A stretch of DNA of 64,000 nt, taken from NCBI RefSeq assembly GCF_004322855.1, contig NZ_CP036402.1, positions 2,666,001-2,730,000 on the forward strand. The letters are read 5' to 3'. A program made the position numbers and the translations under genes. Position 1 is the stretch's first letter, and each line of letters begins with the position of its first letter. The notes beneath the pieces are model-generated. The model was not told where the DNA came from. It did not search any database and saw nothing but the letters and a program-made list of their open reading frames with translations. The stretch comes from Egibacter rhizosphaerae. GTDB taxonomy: Bacteria; Actinomycetota; Nitriliruptoria; Euzebyales; Egibacteraceae. Below, piece after piece: positions 3,084 through 12,979 of the stretch.

Positions 3084-4031
3084 ATGGAGTTCCGGAACCT
3101 CCACGACCTCCAAGCATCGGTGCTAGAAGCCCTCCCGTGCCTTCCGCGGGATATCGAGGTAGTTGTTGGTGTGCCCCGGAGTGGAATGCTCCCCGCCACG
3201 CTCATCGCGTTGTACCTTAACGTGCCCCTGGCTGACCTTGATGGCTGGTTAGACGGCCGCGTTCTCGCCAGTGGAAAGAGGCCCCTACACAGCCCGGTCG
3301 CTCACGGCGATGTGCGGAGATCATCCCGCATTCTGATCGTTGACGACAGTGTCGGCCATGGCTCCCAGATGCGTGCAGTGCATGAGCGCGTTGCTCACGC
3401 GCAGATCTACAATCGAATCGAGTACGCTGCGGTGTACGTCACCCCGGAATGTTCGCATCTCGTCGACTATGCGTTTGAGGAGATCCCCTGGGGTCGATTC
3501 TTTGCTTGGAACATCATGCACCACACCGCCCTAGAAAATGTGTGCGTGGACATTGACGGAGTTATCTGTTCTGATCCTTCCCCGGACCAACCAGAGGGGA
3601 CGCCCGAGTACCTGGCCTTCCTTGAGCATGCTAGGCCCCTCGTGGTGCCCGCGACGGAGATCGGGTGGCTGGTGACCGGACGGTTGGAGAAGTATCGCGG
3701 CGTTACCGAGGCATGGCTTCGCCGTCACGGAGTCCGCTATCGCAGCCTCAAGATGCTGAATCTCCCGGATGTGTCGACCAAGCGAGCCCACGGGGGCGGT
3801 GCGCCGTTCAAAGCTCGCATGTATCAGGAGACAGGGGCGACGCTCTTCGTAGAAAGCTCCGAGCGCGAATCTGCCGCAATTGCGAAGCGTACGGGACGCC
3901 CCGTCTTGTGTTGGGACTCCCAAGAGATGGTGTATCCCGAGTTCGCGGATCGTCTTCTCACTCTACCGGCACGCGCCCCTCGAGGGTTGAGGAATCGCCT
4001 TCGAAGGGTTCGGGCGAGACGCCGCCGCTAG
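3084..4031 (+). CDS. Phosphoribosyltransferase-HAD fusion protein
   Basis: The 315-residue protein has two domains. Residues 1-150 look like a type I phosphoribosyltransferase: VVVGVPRSGM at 26-35 and the PRPP-loop-like LIVDDSVGHGSQM at 84-96. Residues 150-300 look like a HAD-fold domain: VCVDIDGV at 153-160 (Asp156 and Asp158 as motif I) and LVTGR near 198 as motif II. In the expected motif IV place there is VESSERES, without the usual paired acids, so phosphatase chemistry is uncertain. Base use is less GC-rich than the flanks, and it lies between two flippase genes, so a role in making an unusual sugar or phosphate donor is possible. Substrate unknown. The ATG at 3084 follows GGGGCAGGGGC. 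Confidence 0.7.
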   Translation: MEFRNLHDLQASVLEALPCLPRDIEVVVGVPRSGMLPATLIALYLNVPLADLDGWLDGRVLASGKRPLHSPVAHGDVRRSSRILIVDDSVGHGSQMRAVHERVAHAQIYNRIEYAAVYVTPECSHLVDYAFEEIPWGRFFAWNIMHHTALENVCVDIDGVICSDPSPDQPEGTPEYLAFLEHARPLVVPATEIGWLVTGRLEKYRGVTEAWLRRHGVRYRSLKMLNLPDVSTKRAHGGGAPFKARMYQETGATLFVESSERESAAIAKRTGRPVLCWDSQEMVYPEFADRLLTLPARAPRGLRNRLRRVRARRRR

Positions 4032-4077
4032 CAGCGAAGCTAGCAAAGCCGATGCAGGAGTTCCGTTTGGGTCCGCC

Positions 4078-4122
4078 GCCCAGGCCTCCGACCCGCACTG
4101 GTCAGCGACTTGGGCTTTTTTT
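4078..4122 (+). terminator. Possible weak intrinsic terminator
   Basis: A GCCCAG/TTGGGC stem (one G-T pair) encloses a 26-base loop and is followed by seven T residues at 4116-4122, just after the PRTase-HAD gene. The T tract stands out in this GC-rich sequence. The long loop and short stem make it weak, and the next gene begins only 19 bases later, so it may be leaky or attenuating. Confidence 0.35.
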
Positions 4123-4140
4123 CGGCACCAGGGCCTTGCC

Positions 4141-5601
4141 GTGAGCCTTGGGCGGCGTGCTGTGCGCGGTGTCGCTGCCACTGCAGGCGGGCAATGGCTG
4201 CGCTTCATCTTGCATATCGCGACCACGATGGTGCTAGCCAGGCTTGTCACACCAGAAGACTACGGGCTGGTGACCATGGTGGTAGCGATCACGGGCCTGG
4301 CGGAACGTCTTCTCACTGTCGGCCTACGAACCGCAACGATCCAGCGACGGGAGATCACCGATCAACAGGTAAGTGCGCTATTCTGGATTACAGTGATTCT
4401 GGGCACGATCGTCTCCGCCCTCTTCGCCGGCAGTGCGGAGCTCATCTCAGCGTTCTACGGCGAACCCGAATTGGTACCCGTAACGCTGGCAATGTCAAGT
4501 ATATTCGTACTGACGGCTTTCGGGTCCCAGCACATTGCCTTACTTGACCGACACATGCGATTTAAATTGCTTGCGGTCATGGAGGTGACCGCACTCGGTG
4601 TCGCGGGCGTTGCTGCGATCGTTGTGGGAGCCTTGGGAATGGGCTATTGGGCTATCGTGGTCTTGCACCTCGCCCAACCCGCGGTAAAGCTCGCCTTTGG
4701 GTGGTTGGGGACTGGTTGGAAGCCGCAGCTACCAAGGGCCTGGGCGGGCGTACGGTCCCTCTTGTCGTTCGGTGCGTACCAAACACTCTTCCAAGTTCTC
4801 ACCTACTCGTCGCAGAACCTGGACAATGTTGTTATTGGCAACGCTATCGGGTCGTCCGCGCTAGGCATCTATTCACGCGCGTATCAGTTGCTGTTGGTGC
4901 CAATCCGAGAGTTGCAAAGTCCACTACATCGCGTGGCCATCCCGACGCTGAGTCGGCTACAGGATCAGCCAGAGAGGTTCCGCCGCTTCTACCGGACCGG
5001 TTTGAGTGGGACCGCGCATGCGGCGATACCCTTGATCCTGCTATTGGCGTTGGCGTCCGACGAGATCATCCTCCTAGCCCTTGGGGATCAGTGGATCGAA
5101 GCGGGGCCGATATTCCGAGTATTGGCGTTCGCGGGCCTTGCAACGGTAGCTGGGCATGCCAACGGATGGTTGTACGTAGCCTTGGGCCGAGTGCGGCGTC
5201 AGGCGCTGTGGGGGCTTGTCGCGCACCCCCTGCTCATCGCGTCCTTCTTCATAGGTCTCCCTTGGGGGATTGTGGGAGTGGCAACGGCGTACACCGTGAC
5301 GCGGTGGCTCCTCTTGCCGGTGTCGTTGACACTGGCGACGTCTGGGACGCCGGTGAGTCTCGGGGACGTTGGGCGGGCGGTCTGGCGGCCTGCGTGCATA
5401 GGAGCGATTGCGTACATTGCTGCCGGACAAGTGCGGGAGGGGGTGCTATTGGCCCCGACAGTCGTCACGTTGGCTATCGCCGCCACATCGTTCCTGCTTG
5501 CCTACGCGGTGATGCTAGCCGCGTGGAGGCCCGCTCGGGCAGAGTTTAGGTCGTTGCTGGACGTCGCCCGTCAGGGCCTTCGGCGAGCTGGGAATGGGTG
5601 A
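4141..5601 (+). CDS. Second Wzx-type polysaccharide flippase (MOP/PST family)
   Basis: This 486-residue multi-TM protein is a paralogue-type match to the flippase at 1154-2650: both start with a QWLRF/ARWLT-like helix, followed by LVTPEDYGLVTMVV here and by the TIQRREIT segment that the first copy has as AIIQRREVT. Expected role is transbilayer export of a lipid-linked glycan. It starts at GTG 4141 with no clear ribosome binding site. Codon use has more A/T in third positions than the first copy, suggesting separate acquisition rather than recent tandem duplication. Followed after 49 bases by an acyltransferase gene. Confidence 0.85.
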   Translation: MSLGRRAVRGVAATAGGQWLRFILHIATTMVLARLVTPEDYGLVTMVVAITGLAERLLTVGLRTATIQRREITDQQVSALFWITVILGTIVSALFAGSAELISAFYGEPELVPVTLAMSSIFVLTAFGSQHIALLDRHMRFKLLAVMEVTALGVAGVAAIVVGALGMGYWAIVVLHLAQPAVKLAFGWLGTGWKPQLPRAWAGVRSLLSFGAYQTLFQVLTYSSQNLDNVVIGNAIGSSALGIYSRAYQLLLVPIRELQSPLHRVAIPTLSRLQDQPERFRRFYRTGLSGTAHAAIPLILLLALASDEIILLALGDQWIEAGPIFRVLAFAGLATVAGHANGWLYVALGRVRRQALWGLVAHPLLIASFFIGLPWGIVGVATAYTVTRWLLLPVSLTLATSGTPVSLGDVGRAVWRPACIGAIAYIAAGQVREGVLLAPTVVTLAIAATSFLLAYAVMLAAWRPARAEFRSLLDVARQGLRRAGNG

Positions 5602-5650
5602 GGGGCTGGCGCATATGGCCAATTGTGGAGCGTGTAGGTAGGAGTGTCTG

Positions 5651-6250
5651 ATGAGTGGTCGATTGCGTCAACGGTTGGCCGAAGCATACTTCCGCTGGCT
5701 ACAGCGGTACGTGACGGCGACGACGATAAGCGCAAGAGTGCGTTGCTGGCCATTTCTTGAGATGGACAGGAGTGCTCGAATCGACCGAGGCTTTCGTGTT
5801 CGACCGCTCGGGATGCGGGCTGGTGGCCCGCGCATCCACCTAGAGGAGGGGGTTATCGTTGGGAGGTTCGCCCTCTTCCAGGGCCGAGGGACCATTCGTT
5901 TCGGTCCGTACAGTCGCTGCCGGGCGAACTGTCTCTTCGATGCAGGTGAGTCGATCAGTGTCGGAGCATACACGGGGATCGCTGACTACGTGTCCGTGCG
6001 TGATACGGACCACCGATTCGAGCGTACTGATCAACTTATTCGAGACCAAGGGGTGGTGACCAGTCCCGTGGAGATCGGGCGGGACGTGTGGATTGGTCAT
6101 GGCGCGACGATTCTTAAGGGGGTAACGATCGGTAATGGCGCGGTTGTTGCGGCCGGCGCAGTGGTCATAGAGGACGTACCCGAGTTGGGAATAGTCGGCG
6201 GGGTGCCGGCGAAGGTCATCGGGTATCGTGGTGAGGGTACAGCAGGATAG
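5651..6250 (+). CDS. Left-handed beta-helix acyltransferase (WbbJ/LbetaH type)
   Basis: The 199-residue protein has hexapeptide-repeat character from about residue 70 onward (EGVIVGRFALFQGRG, ISVGAYTGIADYVSV) and the family ending: PVEIGRDVWIGHGATI, then GAVVAAGAVVIEDVPE and GVPAKVIG. WIGHGA carries the catalytic histidine expected in sugar O-acetyltransferases, with acetyl-CoA as the likely donor. AGGAG about 9 bases upstream supports ATG 5651. It would decorate a sugar of the polymer exported by the adjacent flippase. Low-GC base use matches the preceding gene. Exact acyl group and acceptor are unknown. Confidence 0.85.
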   Translation: MSGRLRQRLAEAYFRWLQRYVTATTISARVRCWPFLEMDRSARIDRGFRVRPLGMRAGGPRIHLEEGVIVGRFALFQGRGTIRFGPYSRCRANCLFDAGESISVGAYTGIADYVSVRDTDHRFERTDQLIRDQGVVTSPVEIGRDVWIGHGATILKGVTIGNGAVVAAGAVVIEDVPELGIVGGVPAKVIGYRGEGTAG

Positions 6251-6496
6251 ATGGCACTCGTCAGTGCACACCGTGGCGCTGGGAATGAGCTGGTTCGCCG
6301 AGGCATGATGACGCGTGGTAATAGGGCAGCTGGCGGAGGACGTGCTGAAGCTTGATGATCCACGTCCCGCCGAGGCCGGTTCCGCGGTCGAGGGACTGGC
6401 GCGAAGTCCCCGACGAGCAGTCCGAAGTTGGCGAGAAGCCCCGGGTTGGGAGGTCGCTCGCCGCCACTGGGACGGGACACTGGCCAGGACAGATGG

Positions 6497-8242
6497 TCAG
6501 TCGAGCACTGCGGGCGCCTGGTAGCCCCCCGGATCCCGGCTGAACACCCCACGCACGGCGCCGAGCGCCCGCTGACCGACGACCACCCCAGTGCTCAAGA
6601 TGATGCTGAGGTCAAGCCCGATCGACCAGTTCTCGACGTAGAAGAGGTCAAGGCGCTGGTAGGACCAGAACGAGGGGTTATCGCGGGCCTCGACCTGCCA
6701 CAGGCCGGTGATGCCCGGAAGCACCTGCACCCGGGACTGGAGCCGCTCATCGAACTGCTCCGTCTCCTCCTTCAGGGCGGGCCGCGGCCCCACTACGCTC
6801 ATCTCGCCGCGCAGGACGTTCAGCATCTGCGGGAACTCGTCGATGCTCGTGGTCCGCATGAAGCGCCCGATCGGCGTCACCCGCGGGTCGTGTGCGGCCT
6901 TGAACAGCGGGCCGCTCCGCTGGTTCATCGCCTGTACCTCGGCGAGGCGGGCCTCGGCGTCAGTGACCATCGTCCGGAATTTGAATAGCTTGAACGGCTC
7001 CCCGTTGTGCCCGACCCGCTCCTGGCGGAACAGCACCGGCCCGCGGTCGTGCGCCTTGATCGCCAGCGCCGTGATCGCCATGACCGGTGCCGCGACGACG
7101 AGGAACGCCGTGGCCACGACCAGGTCGAGGCTGCGCTTGGCGATGGTCTGCCAGCGCGCCAACCGCAGCGGCTCGAGGTAGAACAGCGGTTCGTGGGCGA
7201 CCGGTGCGGCGCGCAGGCGCTGGTGCGAGAACCCGCGGATCCCGGACGAGACGTGCACGTGCAGGCCGCGGTCGACGAGGTGGCGCAGTGTCTCGTTGAG
7301 GCTCGAGGACTCGAACGCGGTCGAGGCGACCATCACACCGCTCGCACCGGAATGGGTGGCCGCCCACAACGCATCACGGGTCTCACCGAGCCACGGGACG
7401 TTCGGCAGCGAGCGGGCCGCCTGCTCCGCGGGACCGACCACGCCGCGGACCTGGAAACCGTACTCCGGGTGCTCGGCGAGCAGCTGTGCGAGCTCGGCGG
7501 CCTCCTCATTCGCGCCCACCAGTAGCACCGGCCACACGTGCTGGCCGTGGCGACGCTGCTCGGACACCCAGCCACGGAACAGCGCGCGCCCCAGGATGAG
7601 CAGCAGGAACGTCAGCACGCCGGCGAGCACCAGAGGCAGGAGCTGCACCGCCAACCCGACAACCTCCAGCGCGAGCCAGTAGGCAACGACCGAGATCGTC
7701 ACGGCGCGGGCGAGGCGGGCGGTCTCCACCGCACGGATCGCGCAGACCCGCGCTCGGTACAGGTGGCTGCTCGCGATCGTGACGAGCGCGGCGAGCGCGG
7801 CGATCCCCGCCACGGCGAGATGGCTCGAGAACTGTCCGATCGCCAGGGGGCTTGGCGCGGCCAGCAGGGCGGCGATGCCCCAACCGATCGTGAGCGCGAT
7901 GAGGTCGAACGCCACCAGGCGACGCCGCAGATTGCGCGGTCGTGGCGGCTCCAAGCGCGGCCCGTCGTCCTCAACGGCCGAGCGAGAGGCCTCTGCGCGG
8001 GCGGGAAGGGGATCGGCCCCCGCGCGCCTGTCCGGAGGGGCCAGCATGCCCGATTCCGTGGTCGCGTGGACGCCGCCGCCTGCTTGCGTGGAACGGCTGA
8101 CGCTGACTCCGTTGCGCTCGCCGGAGTAGTGCTCGGTCGGACCCAGTTCCCGCAGGCGGGCCGAGGGTGCCGAGTCGCTGCCCCCCGCACGTGCGCGCCG
8201 CCGCTCGTGGTTGTCCCCGCCCAACGCTCCGACACTGCTCAT
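6497..8242 (-). CDS. Polyprenyl-phosphate sugar-1-phosphate transferase (initiating glycosyltransferase)
   Basis: The 581-residue protein has about 120 polar N-terminal residues, then four or five TM helices, a CoA-binding-like soluble domain (LLVGANEEAAELAQLL), one more TM segment and the catalytic bacterial sugar transferase domain. Catalytic signatures are FKLFKFRTM, DPRVTPIGRFMR, SIDEFPQMLNVLRGEM and VGPRP. Such proteins (WbaP/CpsE/EpsL family) transfer hexose-1-phosphate from a UDP-sugar to undecaprenyl phosphate, the first step of exopolysaccharide synthesis. Start ATG 8242 follows GAGGAG. A promoter lies about 250 bases upstream (separate entry). The shrunken relative at 16643-17032 shares its C-terminal pattern. 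Confidence 0.92.
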   Translation of the reverse strand: MSSVGALGGDNHERRRARAGGSDSAPSARLRELGPTEHYSGERNGVSVSRSTQAGGGVHATTESGMLAPPDRRAGADPLPARAEASRSAVEDDGPRLEPPRPRNLRRRLVAFDLIALTIGWGIAALLAAPSPLAIGQFSSHLAVAGIAALAALVTIASSHLYRARVCAIRAVETARLARAVTISVVAYWLALEVVGLAVQLLPLVLAGVLTFLLLILGRALFRGWVSEQRRHGQHVWPVLLVGANEEAAELAQLLAEHPEYGFQVRGVVGPAEQAARSLPNVPWLGETRDALWAATHSGASGVMVASTAFESSSLNETLRHLVDRGLHVHVSSGIRGFSHQRLRAAPVAHEPLFYLEPLRLARWQTIAKRSLDLVVATAFLVVAAPVMAITALAIKAHDRGPVLFRQERVGHNGEPFKLFKFRTMVTDAEARLAEVQAMNQRSGPLFKAAHDPRVTPIGRFMRTTSIDEFPQMLNVLRGEMSVVGPRPALKEETEQFDERLQSRVQVLPGITGLWQVEARDNPSFWSYQRLDLFYVENWSIGLDLSIILSTGVVVGQRALGAVRGVFSRDPGGYQAPAVLD

Positions 8243-8799
8243 GAATACTCCTCAAACTCTTGGCGATGCGAGGTCCCGCCTCGTCCCGCCGGTGCGCGGT
8301 CCGCCCGTGGTGCTCACTGTTCGTGAGGTGCGGACCGCCACGTGTCTCCGCTCCGCCCTCCCTCGCAGGGAGGCCCCTATCGCTCATCTCCCGACGGGAG
8401 TAGTACGCCTACTGTGCCCGCATTTCGCGCATTGTTCCAGTGGGTCGCGCTGCGTAGCCAACCTTGACCTGCCGCCCTGTGGACCACCCGTAGTAACGCA
8501 CTGTGGTGTCACTTGTCAATACGTTGACGCTCCGTCATGAATCTGTCACCCCTGCAGGGCCCGTGGTCCGCGTGGCCCACTGGCGCTTGGTGAAGCGTCG
8601 CAACGCCCCCGACAGCGGAACCCGCCACTGCGGATGTCGAGGCTCCGTCCCCTGCCAAGACCGTCCCGCCGGAGCACCGAGTCCCCCGCAGAAACCTAGA
8701 GGATAACCGGGTCGAGAGCCGAACGAAAGTGACATCCGCACCTCGGGGCGCGACGCGTCCGGGGTACCTCGGTCACAGCCCAGTGCCGGAAGTGGCCGG
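8243..8799 (-). other. Long untranslated leader of the initiating transferase gene
   Basis: This 557-base gap lies between rmlC and the sugar transferase gene, both on the minus strand. I see no gene. It holds a promoter candidate (8491-8519), hence a leader of about 240 bases. In the leader are two compact stems: 8357-8373 (CCTCCC/GGGAGG, 5-base loop) and 8388-8400 (CTCCC/GGGAG, 3-base loop). These could affect transcription or translation, but no riboswitch family is recognised. Confidence 0.4.
8491..8519 (-). promoter_or_regulatory. Candidate promoter with an overlapping inverted repeat
   Basis: Read on the minus strand: TTGACA (8519-8514), 17-base spacer, TTACTA (8496-8491). The -35 box sits inside a perfect inverted repeat GTCAA-N4-TTGAC at 8515-8528, a plausible repressor operator. 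It would drive the initiating transferase gene at 8242. The -35 matches the sigma-70-type consensus exactly; the -10 is only partial. Confidence 0.42.
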
Positions 8800-9327
8800 T
8801 CAGAGCCGGGGCAGGTCGCGGTCCGCCTCGGACAGCTGTGGGTGGTCGATCGGCCAATCCACCCCGATCGTGAGGTCGTCCCACGCGACCGCGCGCTTGT
8901 CGACGCCCGGTCGCCACTCGGCGGTGACGTCGTAGAGGTAATCGACCGGCTCGGTGCCCATCGCCAGGAAGGCGTTCGCGAGCCCTTCGCTGAGAAAGAG
9001 GCGTCGGTGCTCCCCGCGGGGCGGGTCGCCGAGCCAGAAGGTCTCGTGGTGGGCGTAGGTGGGGGAGTTCTCGCGCAGGTCAGCGACCGCGCAGAAGGCC
9101 ACGCCGCGCGCGACGTAGACGAGCTTGTCCCACGGCTCGGCGTGGAACCCACGCAGCACGCCGGGATGCGACCGCGAATGGTTGCCCTGCCGGAACACGA
9201 CCTCGCGGCCGAGGGCCTCCTCGAGCTCGGAGAGCTGATACGTCTGGCGGAACCAGCCCCGCTCGTCGACGAACGCGGGCCAGTCGACGACCAATAGCCC
9301 GGGGATCGATGTCTCGGCGATCGCCAT
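8800..9327 (-). CDS. rmlC: dTDP-4-dehydrorhamnose 3,5-epimerase
   Basis: The 175-residue RmlC-type cupin epimerises dTDP-4-keto-6-deoxyglucose at C3 and C5, the third step to dTDP-L-rhamnose. Visible family features: ERGWF near residue 22, VLRGFHAEPWDKLVYV with the catalytic His and the Lys, SPTYAHHETFWLG, VDYLYDVTAEWRPG with the expected Tyr, and a final WDDLTIGVDWPI. The usual GFAHGF turn reads GLANAF, a modest departure. ATG 9327 overlaps the rmlD stop (ATGA), so the longer open frame through it is not the gene. Last gene of the rmlB-rmlD-rmlC operon. Confidence 0.88.
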   Translation of the reverse strand: MAIAETSIPGLLVVDWPAFVDERGWFRQTYQLSELEEALGREVVFRQGNHSRSHPGVLRGFHAEPWDKLVYVARGVAFCAVADLRENSPTYAHHETFWLGDPPRGEHRRLFLSEGLANAFLAMGTEPVDYLYDVTAEWRPGVDKRAVAWDDLTIGVDWPIDHPQLSEADRDLPRL

Positions 9328-10175
9328 CAGGCGGCCTCGGCCTCGAGGGCACGCACCAGGCGGCGTAGGCCGTCGCGCCAGTGGGGCAGCGCGCCGAGCC
9401 CGGCCATCGCGGCATGGCGCCCCTCGAGCCGGCTGTTCGCGGGCCGGGGCGCGGGGGCGCCGAACGCCGCCGCCGTGGTGGGCGCGACCTCGACGTCGAG
9501 CCCGGCCTCCTCGAAGATCGCCTCCGCATAGTCGAACCACGTGCACGCGCCGGCGTTGGTGACGTGGAACGTGCCGTAGCGGCGCGTGACGGTGAGCTGG
9601 CGGATCGCCTCCGCCAGGTCGAACGCGAACGTCGGGGTGCCGACCTGGTCGGTGACGACCTCGACGCGGTCGCGCTCGCGGCCCAGGCGCAGCATCGTCT
9701 TGGTGAAGTTCGCGCCGTCGATGCCCTGCAGCCACGAGGTCCGCACGATCACGTGCTCGTCGCAGCGCTCGCGGACGAGCTGCTCGCCCGCGTCCTTCGT
9801 GCGCCCGTACACCGAGACGGGATTCGGGCGGTCGAACTCGGTGTAGGGGCGGTCGAGGGTTCCGTCGAACACGTAGTCGGTGGAGAGGTGCACGAGCCCG
9901 ATCCCCGCCGCCGAGCAGGCCCGCGCGAGGTTCGCGGCACCGCCCGCGTTGACCGCCCAGGCGGGCTCGGGGTCGGTCTCGCAGGCATCGACGGCGGTGT
10001 AGGCGGCGCAGTTGACGACGACCTGTGGCTGGTAGTCGCGCACGGCGGCCCACACGCTCGGTTCGTCGGTGACGTCGAGGTCGCTCGCGCCGGGAGCGAT
10101 GAGCTCGTCGTCGCGCCAGCCGCGGGTGATCGCGCGGCCCAACTGCCCGCCCGCGCCGGTGATCAGCGCCCTCAT
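9327..10175 (-). CDS. rmlD: dTDP-4-dehydrorhamnose reductase
   Basis: The 282-residue short-chain dehydrogenase-like enzyme reduces dTDP-4-keto-L-rhamnose to dTDP-L-rhamnose with NAD(P)H. It starts [16 protein letters not shown] (Rossmann glycine motif), has VVNCAAYTAVDACE near residue 65, the active-site STDYVFDG near 103 and the YGRTK catalytic Tyr-Lys pair near 128. ATG 10175 overlaps the rmlB stop. Length fits the family. Rhamnose probably goes into the surface polymer and perhaps the peptidoglycan linkage unit, as in other actinomycetes. Confidence 0.93.
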   Translation of the reverse strand: MRALITGAGGQLGRAITRGWRDDELIAPGASDLDVTDEPSVWAAVRDYQPQVVVNCAAYTAVDACETDPEPAWAVNAGGAANLARACSAAGIGLVHLSTDYVFDGTLDRPYTEFDRPNPVSVYGRTKDAGEQLVRERCDEHVIVRTSWLQGIDGANFTKTMLRLGRERDRVEVVTDQVGTPTFAFDLAEAIRQLTVTRRYGTFHVTNAGACTWFDYAEAIFEEAGLDVEVAPTTAAAFGAPAPRPANSRLEGRHAAMAGLGALPHWRDGLRRLVRALEAEAA

Positions 10176-11376: not shown

Positions 11377-11865
11377 GTGAGTGCTGCTCGCGCTCGTCGT
11401 TGGCGTCGGCTGGCCTTGGTGTGCTTTCTGCTGATCCTTCCGACTCAGATGCTCGTCGCCCGCCTGTGGAGTGAACCGTATCCGGCCCTCTACCAGCCTT
11501 CGTTTGCCGGCGCGGCTCAGGGTGGGGAGCAGGTCGAGTTCACGGTACCGAGGGTCACGATGCATGCCCGGGGCGGAGAAGACCTCAGATTGCACCACAT
11601 GGACCTCATGGCGGAATCTCGCGTAGCGGAGATAGCAGTATTCTCCACTGCATTCCCGGCTGACAACCTCGAGGATGCCCTAGAGGATTCCTCAAATGCG
11701 CAATGGCTGCAATCAAGGTTGGAGGAGCTCACAGGGGAAAGCCCTGAGGCTGCGACCGTTGAGTGGATTCGTTACACCGCGGAGCGGAACGCGTCTGTCG
11801 AGTACGCATCTGTCGAGTATGAGCGCGTGATCGAAAGTGCATATCGGGTTGAGTTCGATGAGTGA
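11377..11865 (+). CDS. Membrane-anchored protein of unknown function, paired with the HTTM protein
   Basis: The 162-residue protein has one N-terminal hydrophobic segment after a basic start ([18 protein letters not shown]), then a soluble domain that should face outside. The sequence after the anchor ([16 protein letters not shown]) and the beta-rich remainder do not match a domain I recognise. GTG 11377 follows GGGAG. Its stop overlaps the start of the HTTM gene by eight bases (ATGAGTGA), so the two are translated together; anchored proteins commonly accompany HTTM proteins in actinobacteria, which suggests a two-part membrane unit. Third-position A/T is higher than in the rml genes. Confidence 0.6.
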
Positions 11866-12979
11866 CCTTGCTCGAGCACCCTTATATTGCCTCGACCGGT
11901 GGATGGAGGCGGGTCCTTTCCGCCCGACGGACCTGGGACGATTCCGGGTCCTGTTCTGCTGCTACGCGTTGCTGAACCTTCCTTCGTTCAGTTGGGTCGC
12001 AGCGTTTCCCGACACTTTCCATTCGCCACCCCCCGGGCCCTTTGCCCTCATCGGCGGATTCCCGCATCCAACTGTACTTTCCTTCCTGGAGGTGGGGGTC
12101 GCCTTGGCCCTCGTGGCGGTCCTGATCGGATGGTGGACGCGCGCAGCATCGATCATGGCGACGGGGTTCATGCTCGTCGGCTACGGATTCTCATTCTCAT
12201 TCGGAAAGATCGACCACAACATTCTCTTCGTCGTTCTGCCGGTCTTTATGGCCTATGCGGGATGGGGGGCGGCGTACTCCGTTGACGCGGCCCGTGGTGG
12301 GGCTTATGAGGTTCGCCAGTGGGGGATGCGGCTGCTGGCCCTGGCTGTGGCCATGGCGTTCGCGACTGCTGCGCTGCCGAAGTGGCGTCAGGGGTGGTTG
12401 AGTACCGACACGCAAGCCGTGCGCAACGAGCTGATGCAATCCCAGCATACCTCGGACCCCGGATGGTTGGGCCACCTTCTGATAGGGTCCGTTGACAGTG
12501 CTGCCTTCTGGATTGCCCTTGATTGGGGGGCGGTGCTATTCGAGTTCGGCATGGTAGCCGCAGTCCTTAGTTGGGCGTCGTTTCGCTTGTTGCTCGCGAT
12601 CGCAGGACTCTTCCACCTGTCCGTGATGCTGGTATTCGACATCACTTTCGCGCCCAACATCCTCGTGTACGCTGCCTTCATTCCCTGGGCCAGCCTGTCC
12701 GTACCCAAGTTGTTGGCAAGCCCGTTTCGGAAGGCTGCGGTAAGACTCGAACGTCGCCCGCGTCCCCCACTGGTGGTGGGTGCAGGGGGGGCTGTCGTGT
12801 GGCTAGCTTCTCCGCTTCTCCGCCAGATCGCTGTTCCGGTATCGGCCAGCGTCGTGGTGATCGGCGGCGTGGTGGGCGGAGTCTACCTCGCGTGGCGTCT
12901 GCAAAGGTTATTAAAGACAGGGCCCGGCTTAGAGCACGACCACCTTGCACGGACGGCGGGGCGGTCCAGTGTTGAGTGA
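11858..12979 (+). CDS. HTTM-domain (vitamin-K-carboxylase-like) membrane protein
   Basis: The 373-residue protein has about eight TM segments. The opening FRPTDLGRFRVLFCCYALL, a basic-aromatic stretch before the first helices, plus the later GKIDHNILF and WRQGW segments, resemble the HTTM (horizontally transferred transmembrane) fold related to gamma-glutamyl carboxylase. No activity can be claimed. ATG 11858 is preferred over an in-frame GTG at 11837 because it makes an eight-base overlap with its partner gene. The placement inside a polysaccharide locus with lower GC suggests acquisition with the cassette. Confidence 0.6.
   Translation: MSDLARAPLYCLDRWMEAGPFRPTDLGRFRVLFCCYALLNLPSFSWVAAFPDTFHSPPPGPFALIGGFPHPTVLSFLEVGVALALVAVLIGWWTRAASIMATGFMLVGYGFSFSFGKIDHNILFVVLPVFMAYAGWGAAYSVDAARGGAYEVRQWGMRLLALAVAMAFATAALPKWRQGWLSTDTQAVRNELMQSQHTSDPGWLGHLLIGSVDSAAFWIALDWGAVLFEFGMVAAVLSWASFRLLLAIAGLFHLSVMLVFDITFAPNILVYAAFIPWASLSVPKLLASPFRKAAVRLERRPRPPLVVGAGGAVVWLASPLLRQIAVPVSASVVVIGGVVGGVYLAWRLQRLLKTGPGLEHDHLARTAGRSSVE

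Follow-up and report, generated by a model that had tools for sequence, protein, structure and literature searches.

The 64,000-nucleotide stretch of Egibacter rhizosphaerae DNA that we analyzed (the window) carries an intact open reading frame, preceded immediately on its 5' side by the Shine-Dalgarno-like GAGGGGCAGGGG, in which an N-terminal type I phosphoribosyltransferase (PRT) domain is joined to a C-terminal HAD domain. The gene lies between two Wzx flippase genes with Polysacc_synt_3 matches (Table 1), as an earlier note made from the sequence alone had described. The resident locus consists of GT2, Wzx1, C-methyltransferase and sugar-nucleotide genes. Most genes in the surroundings have GC3 values of 0.85-0.97, compared with 0.68 for the fusion, 0.70 for Wzx2 and 0.62 for the hexapeptide acyltransferase. 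When flippases next to PRT-HAD genes elsewhere were compared with the two in the window, Wzx2 was the closer one in 26 of 27 comparisons, many of them with related Mesorhizobium. Given the low GC3 and this likeness, positions 3084-6250 look like an imported module, and Wzx2 was probably imported together with the PRT-HAD fusion. Another low-GC3 patch (0.65-0.72), at 11377-12979 amid high-GC3 sugar-nucleotide genes, encodes an HTTM-domain membrane protein (PF05090) and a 162-aa partner. Some 20 kb upstream of the window (L096:8588-16110) are four C-methyltransferase-like genes and a nucleotidyltransferase; these C-methyltransferase-like genes suggest C-methylated sugars in the resident glycan.

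Table 1. Genes, domains and active-site motifs at the PRT-HAD locus, in window positions (conservation over 49 aligned family members)
Feature	Start	End	Strand	Details
GT2 glycosyltransferase of the resident locus	90	1157	+	Pfam
Wzx1, first Wzx flippase (Polysacc_synt_3)	1154	2650	+	E 2e-84; host-like GC3 0.89
PRT-HAD fusion ORF	3084	4031	+	315 aa; ATG start; intact; between the two Wzx flippases
N-terminal type I PRT domain, residues 1-147	3084	3524	+	PF00156; XGPRT/HGXPRT fold
Pyrophosphate-loop motif VGVPRSG, residues 28-34	3165	3185	+	R32, S33 and G34 invariant (49/49)
PRPP-binding loop RILIVDDSVGHGS region, residues 82-94	3327	3365	+	D87, D88 and G93 invariant (49/49)
C-terminal HAD domain, residues 148-281	3525	3926	+	T4 Pnkp phosphatase-like by structure comparison
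HAD motif I, DIDGV	3549	3563	+	D156 48/49; D158 49/49
HAD motif II, Thr198	3675	3677	+	49/49
HAD motif III, Lys243	3810	3812	+	49/49
HAD motif IV, Glu257-Ser258 in place of the usual Asp pair	3852	3857	+	E 49/49; S 47/49
Wzx2, second Wzx flippase (Polysacc_synt_3)	4141	5601	+	E 2e-83; GC3 0.70
Hexapeptide-repeat acyltransferase	5651	6250	+	low-GC3 cassette member; GC3 0.62

Residues 23-124 of the fusion match PF00156 (Pribosyltran) above the curated cut-off (E 1.4e-6), a family also matched by nine of nine members of our first PRT-HAD alignment; no HAD model was matched in the Pfam search of the fusion protein. The AlphaFold model, built from a 42-sequence alignment, has a mean pLDDT of 90.9 and a pTM of 0.82. 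By VIA-align, the PRT half (residues 1-147) superposes on xanthine-guanine-type PRTs with Z up to 15.1 (rmsd 2.7 over 128 residues), and the common type I PRT fold is present, with Z 14-15 to XGPRT/HGXPRT. The HAD half (residues 148-281) falls on the Pnkp phosphatase domains, those of T4 Pnkp 3'-phosphatase and Pnkp1, with Z 12-12.8; modeled alone it reaches pLDDT 95.6 and aligns with T4 Pnkp 3'-phosphatase at Z 12.8 (rmsd 2.7 over 118 residues). Taken together, Pfam, AlphaFold and structure comparison show the two-domain assignment to be right, in agreement with the earlier note. A fold search of BFVD returned single-domain PRT or HAD matches only. A VMAP-C Pfam match to the HAD half (E 1.1e-4) was dismissed as chance, being present in one of nine members and under its own cut-off. 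Among NCBIfam salvage equivalogs the top match scored 24.4 bits, under the cut-off of 138, and since the host genome contains other PF00156 matches, the fusion is not its sole PRT.

We counted residue conservation over 49 aligned PRT-HAD members. The hallmarks of a type I PRT, a PRPP-binding motif with its adjacent acidic pair and a pyrophosphate loop, are all present, as are those of a HAD enzyme (the motif I DxD, motif II Thr, motif III Lys and a Pnkp-like fold). Motif IV of the window copy reads F-V-E257-S258, so the normal acidic pair is indeed lacking, as the earlier note had seen; however, because Glu257 is invariant this is the family's own form of the motif rather than a loss. With the catalytic residues kept and the motif IV Glu invariant, a dead HAD domain is unlikely, and the suggestion that the second half is a non-catalytic binding module is not supported: the nucleophile, general acid, Thr, Lys and invariant Glu are all retained in the window copy. 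From these residues, we infer a putative working Mg2+-dependent phosphatase with Glu257 as a metal ligand. Of 77 highly conserved columns, the window copy does deviate at 12, most of which belong to the HAD half, with changes at the near-invariant N170, D171, D172, G173, H239, Q262 and A263; the NDDG loop after motif I becomes QPEG, part of which may be explained by an alignment shift. Despite this divergent HAD substrate loop, every listed PRPP-site and HAD catalytic position is kept. Tandem copies occur elsewhere: on a Gemmatimonadetes contig (L045:239-2258) the first copy has D156E and other HAD changes next to an intact second copy, and genome G1055 has a similar adjacent pair, one with an apparently broken frame.

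Homologues covering 80% or more of the query were found in 41 plasmid records, all from alphaproteobacterial genera, the 20 best sharing 41-46% identity with the window protein, and a scan of the genome collection gave 359 PRT-HAD loci, of which the best 80 were kept. These plasmid and genome-collection relatives place the homology far beyond chance. In evenly drawn samples, profile searches found strong full-length matches in 12 of 145 haloarchaea, 4 of 296 Bacteroidota and 5 of 289 alphaproteobacteria; in the window organism's own phylum, a single-protein search of 396 genomes found the window genome alone, plus one weak partial match. Such sparseness mostly fits an accessory gene spread by transfer; Mesorhizobium, with 74/119 genomes, is the exception. 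In the phylogenetic tree the window protein forms a long lone branch whose nearest neighbor is a Planctomycetota sequence (46-48% identity), and the haloarchaeal copies form a branch of their own. Five full-length homologues lie on viral contigs, and the four placed in the tree occupy a separate deep branch. PRT-HAD is a coherent, patchily distributed fusion family across several phyla. A phage origin of the fusion was rejected, with no INPHARED match and the viral copies branching separately, and a defense-system role was rejected for lack of a PADLOC match.

To describe gene context, we asked for at least one glycan-assembly gene within three genes of PRT-HAD; locus genes were longest-ORF/GC3 calls, which place start sites, and some of the small genes, only approximately. 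Such a gene was nearby in 50 of 52 Bacteroidota loci, 19 of 19 Mesorhizobium loci, 12 of 16 other alphaproteobacterial loci, 4 of 5 loci of other phyla (the window counted) and 3 of 5 viral contigs, with counts uncorrected for relatedness and the bacterial sample weighted to copies near the window protein. Neighbor clusters, built from the loci read and then named by Pfam, comprise Wzx, Wzy_C, GT1, GT2, GT4, Bac_transf and outer-membrane OEP, along with hexapeptide transferase, pyruvyl transferase, UDP-glucose dehydrogenase and GMC oxidoreductase. The earlier note's view that the fusion is unusual in a polysaccharide locus does not hold for the family: in bacteria it is habitual there. Haloarchaea differ, with a glycan-assembly gene near 1 of 10 loci. 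Their copies adjoin arginine/lysine genes, NOG1 or phosphate transport, and may have a different function or have their glycan genes located elsewhere. Four haloarchaeal loci (L159, L160, L162 and L164) share a conserved chromosomal neighborhood of arginine/lysine biosynthesis-like genes (named by eye) without glycan genes. The planctomycete copy, the window protein's nearest relative, is also outside any recognizable glycan locus. Two Rhizobium plasmids (L004:9819-18635 and L009:9965-18641) encode a C-terminally extended PRT-HAD flanked by a caspase-family gene on one side and a 758-aa glycosyltransferase on the other, adjoining type VI secretion VgrG, and on viral contigs L092, L093 and L095 (~6100-10170) PRT-HAD sits beside GT2, methyltransferase-like and nucleotide-sugar transferase-like genes.

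The strongest argument for function comes from Mesorhizobium, where the loci examined have the order exoU-x-exoK-UDPGlcDH-GMC-small protein-GT4-[PRT-HAD]-Wzx(exoT-like)-exoL-exoA-exoM-exoO-exoN-exoP, which fits the published M. loti order exoQFYXUKTLAMONP (PMC8227245). Homologues of exoU, K, L, A, M, O, N and P are colinear on S. meliloti pSymB by tblastn, with gene names taken from the published order and ExoK of Mesorhizobium confirmed above cut-off by an NCBIfam equivalog. Relative to S. meliloti, five genes are extra: UDP-glucose dehydrogenase, GT4, PRT-HAD, GMC oxidoreductase and the small protein, which has a twin-arginine-like start. Both pSymB and pNGR234b were within the searched plasmid collection and gave no PRT-HAD homologue. 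Succinoglycan of S. meliloti is Glc7Gal, with Glc and Gal its only sugars (PMC7392887, PMC8227245), whereas the exopolysaccharide (EPS) repeat of M. loti R7A ends in (2,3/3OAc)beta-D-RibfA-(1->4)-alpha-D-GlcpA-(1->4)-beta-D-Glcp (PMC7392887); PRT-HAD was seen in the 74 Mesorhizobium genomes and in a strain labeled M. loti CJ3sym, and the EPS structure is that of strain R7A. Since the five extra genes map onto the two extra sugars, we infer that PRT-HAD provides the beta-Ribf step. In this assignment UDP-glucose dehydrogenase would supply UDP-GlcA for a retaining GT4 that adds alpha-GlcA, PRT-HAD would carry out PRPP-dependent inverting transfer and dephosphorylation to give beta-Ribf, and the GMC oxidoreductase would oxidize the C5 alcohol to riburonate. 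In S. fredii SMH12 and Erythrobacter, too, PRT-HAD is directly next to a pair of GMC oxidoreductase and small protein, and in a Sphingomonas locus the pair is near it. This recurrent alphaproteobacterial pair, at L036:12182-14091 a GMC oxidoreductase with a 150-aa twin-arginine-like partner that has no family match, is a candidate riburonate-forming oxidase. Our literature search found no gene assignment for the riburonic acid residue of M. loti EPS.

Transfer of Ribf-5-P from PRPP followed by HAD dephosphorylation is a proven route to beta-Ribf elsewhere (PMC11127046, PMC10299916, PMC12096443), performed by the two-step enzymes gPRT-PRP (PMC11127046, PMC11231755), Bcs3 CriT-CrpP (PMC10299916) and Cj1432 (PMC12096443). 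The gPRT-PRP dual-domain ribofuranosyltransferases of Klebsiella O4/O7 and T. composti (Kelly et al. 2022, per PMC11127046, PMC11231755) give beta-linked products, alpha-Ribf being made by UbiA systems (PMC11127046). Like PRT-HAD, they unite a PRPP-type transferase with a HAD phosphatase in a single chain encoded in glycan loci, with a beta-Ribf product that has been demonstrated for gPRT-PRP and is predicted for PRT-HAD. The gPRT was reportedly presented by Kelly and colleagues in 2022 as a new glycosyltransferase fold, divergent from characterized PRTs. The N-terminal transferase of PRT-HAD, by contrast, belongs to the classical type I PRTs, the HAD domain that follows it is Pnkp-like, and profile searches to E 5-10 gave no match to the solved gPRT-PRP or Bcs3 chains; we therefore do not file the family under gPRT-PRP, for which 'sequence-based outliers' are mentioned in PMC11127046. 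The PRP domains of published ribofuranosyltransferases were not among the matches listed in the HAD-only fold search, which is uninformative either way. Hib Bcs3 CriT-CrpP and C. jejuni Cj1432 also resemble our proposal in forming Ribf-5-P from PRPP and dephosphorylating it with a HAD domain before chain extension (PMC10299916, PMC12096443), but they have the HAD domain ahead of the transferase, extra GT domains and a CriT that is larger, contains helical bundles and has a GT fold not described before (PMC10299916), and they serve transporter-dependent capsules instead of Wzx/Wzy loci. The xanthine-guanine and archaeal purine PRTs (1vdm, 4z1o, 4jit) match the N-terminal half in fold and PRPP-site motifs but use a purine acceptor and have no fused HAD, while the phosphatase domains of T4 Pnkp and Pnkp1 (5uj0, 4xrp) share the fold of the HAD half but not its Glu-Ser in place of the motif IV Asp pair or its context, and Pnkp has a kinase that PRT-HAD lacks. 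We found no paper on this exact fusion in glycan loci in our literature search.

Based on these comparisons, the fusion is likely a single-chain, two-step PRPP-dependent beta-D-ribofuranosyltransferase for a Wzx/Wzy-type surface glycan, with confidence resting mainly on the bacterial family and somewhat lower for the divergent window copy. The type I PRT domain would use PRPP to place Ribf-5-P on a hydroxyl of a cytoplasmic lipid-linked oligosaccharide, inversion giving the beta linkage. The HAD domain would then remove the 5-phosphate, after which the sugar could be built upon, exported by the neighboring Wzx or, in certain alphaproteobacteria, oxidized to riburonate by the GMC oxidoreductase. 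Type I PRTs usually form N-glycosides, which counts against transfer to a glycan hydroxyl. Of the precursor role proposed in the earlier note, a ribofuranosyl unit for the exported polymer is well supported by the family context and by the match of the exo cluster to riburonate; more precisely, direct transfer of Ribf-5-P to the glycan is the probable route, rather than synthesis of a soluble precursor.

Alternatively, the PRT could phosphoribosylate polyprenyl phosphate and the HAD domain dephosphorylate the product, yielding a ribose donor on a lipid carrier, to be flipped across the membrane and consumed on its outer side, as in the UbiA-based three-component systems (C. youngae ORF15 and Rv3806c; PMC11127046). 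These share the PRPP donor, ORF15 also has a HAD phosphatase domain (PMC11127046), and flippases adjoin the fusion in the window. Yet those systems rely on a membrane UbiA transferase, a lipid acceptor and an alpha product; PRT-HAD has a soluble type I PRT fold without a UbiA match in Pfam, the M. loti residue is beta (PMC11127046, PMC7392887), and the family's neighbors are Wzx, Wzy and cytoplasmic GTs, all of which make a lipid-donor route very unlikely. We give equally little credence to a nucleobase/nucleotide salvage or regulatory enzyme present in glycan loci by happenstance. Although the PRT fold is nearest to xanthine-guanine PRTs and haloarchaeal copies lie by housekeeping genes such as arginine/lysine biosynthesis or NOG1, the best salvage equivalog score is far under its cut-off, bacterial copies are strongly associated with glycan loci and the host has other PRTs. 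According to the earlier note, homologues known to act in salvage and found away from glycan loci would refute its reading; the haloarchaeal copies and one planctomycete copy do lie outside such loci, but none of them has a known salvage role.

A narrower alternative concerns the window copy, in which the PRT could be active and the HAD a degenerate binding module, so that the glycan keeps ribose-5-phosphate or another enzyme removes the phosphate. The near-invariant HAD-half residues changed in this copy (the loop part perhaps by alignment shift) and the lost nucleophile of the Gemmatimonadetes tandem copy (D156E), beside an intact one, speak for this reading; set against five intact catalytic positions and a confident HAD model (AlphaFold), it is improbable, if a little less so than the other two.

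Returning to two-step ribofuranosyl transfer, PRT-HAD is a real family of predicted bifunctional enzymes in several phyla and most likely a second structural solution to glycan ribofuranosylation. The riburonic acid residue that ends the M. loti EPS is part of the glycan that the Lotus receptor EPR3 recognizes. On balance, we lean toward the fuller proposal that PRPP-dependent glycan ribofuranosyltransferases arose convergently a second time, as a nucleotide-salvage-type PRT fused to a Pnkp-like HAD in Wzx/Wzy-type loci of several phyla, and that this second kind is also responsible for the beta-riburonate tip of the EPR3-sensed Mesorhizobium EPS. Many Bacteroidota and rhizobial copies are currently annotated only as 'phosphoribosyltransferase family protein'. 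If the proposal is true, the family would add a second protein fold to the few enzymes that place ribofuranose in bacterial polysaccharides, would offer a pathway by which the riburonic acid at the tip of M. loti EPS is made, and would make ribofuranose predictable from the genomes of many Bacteroidota and rhizobia.
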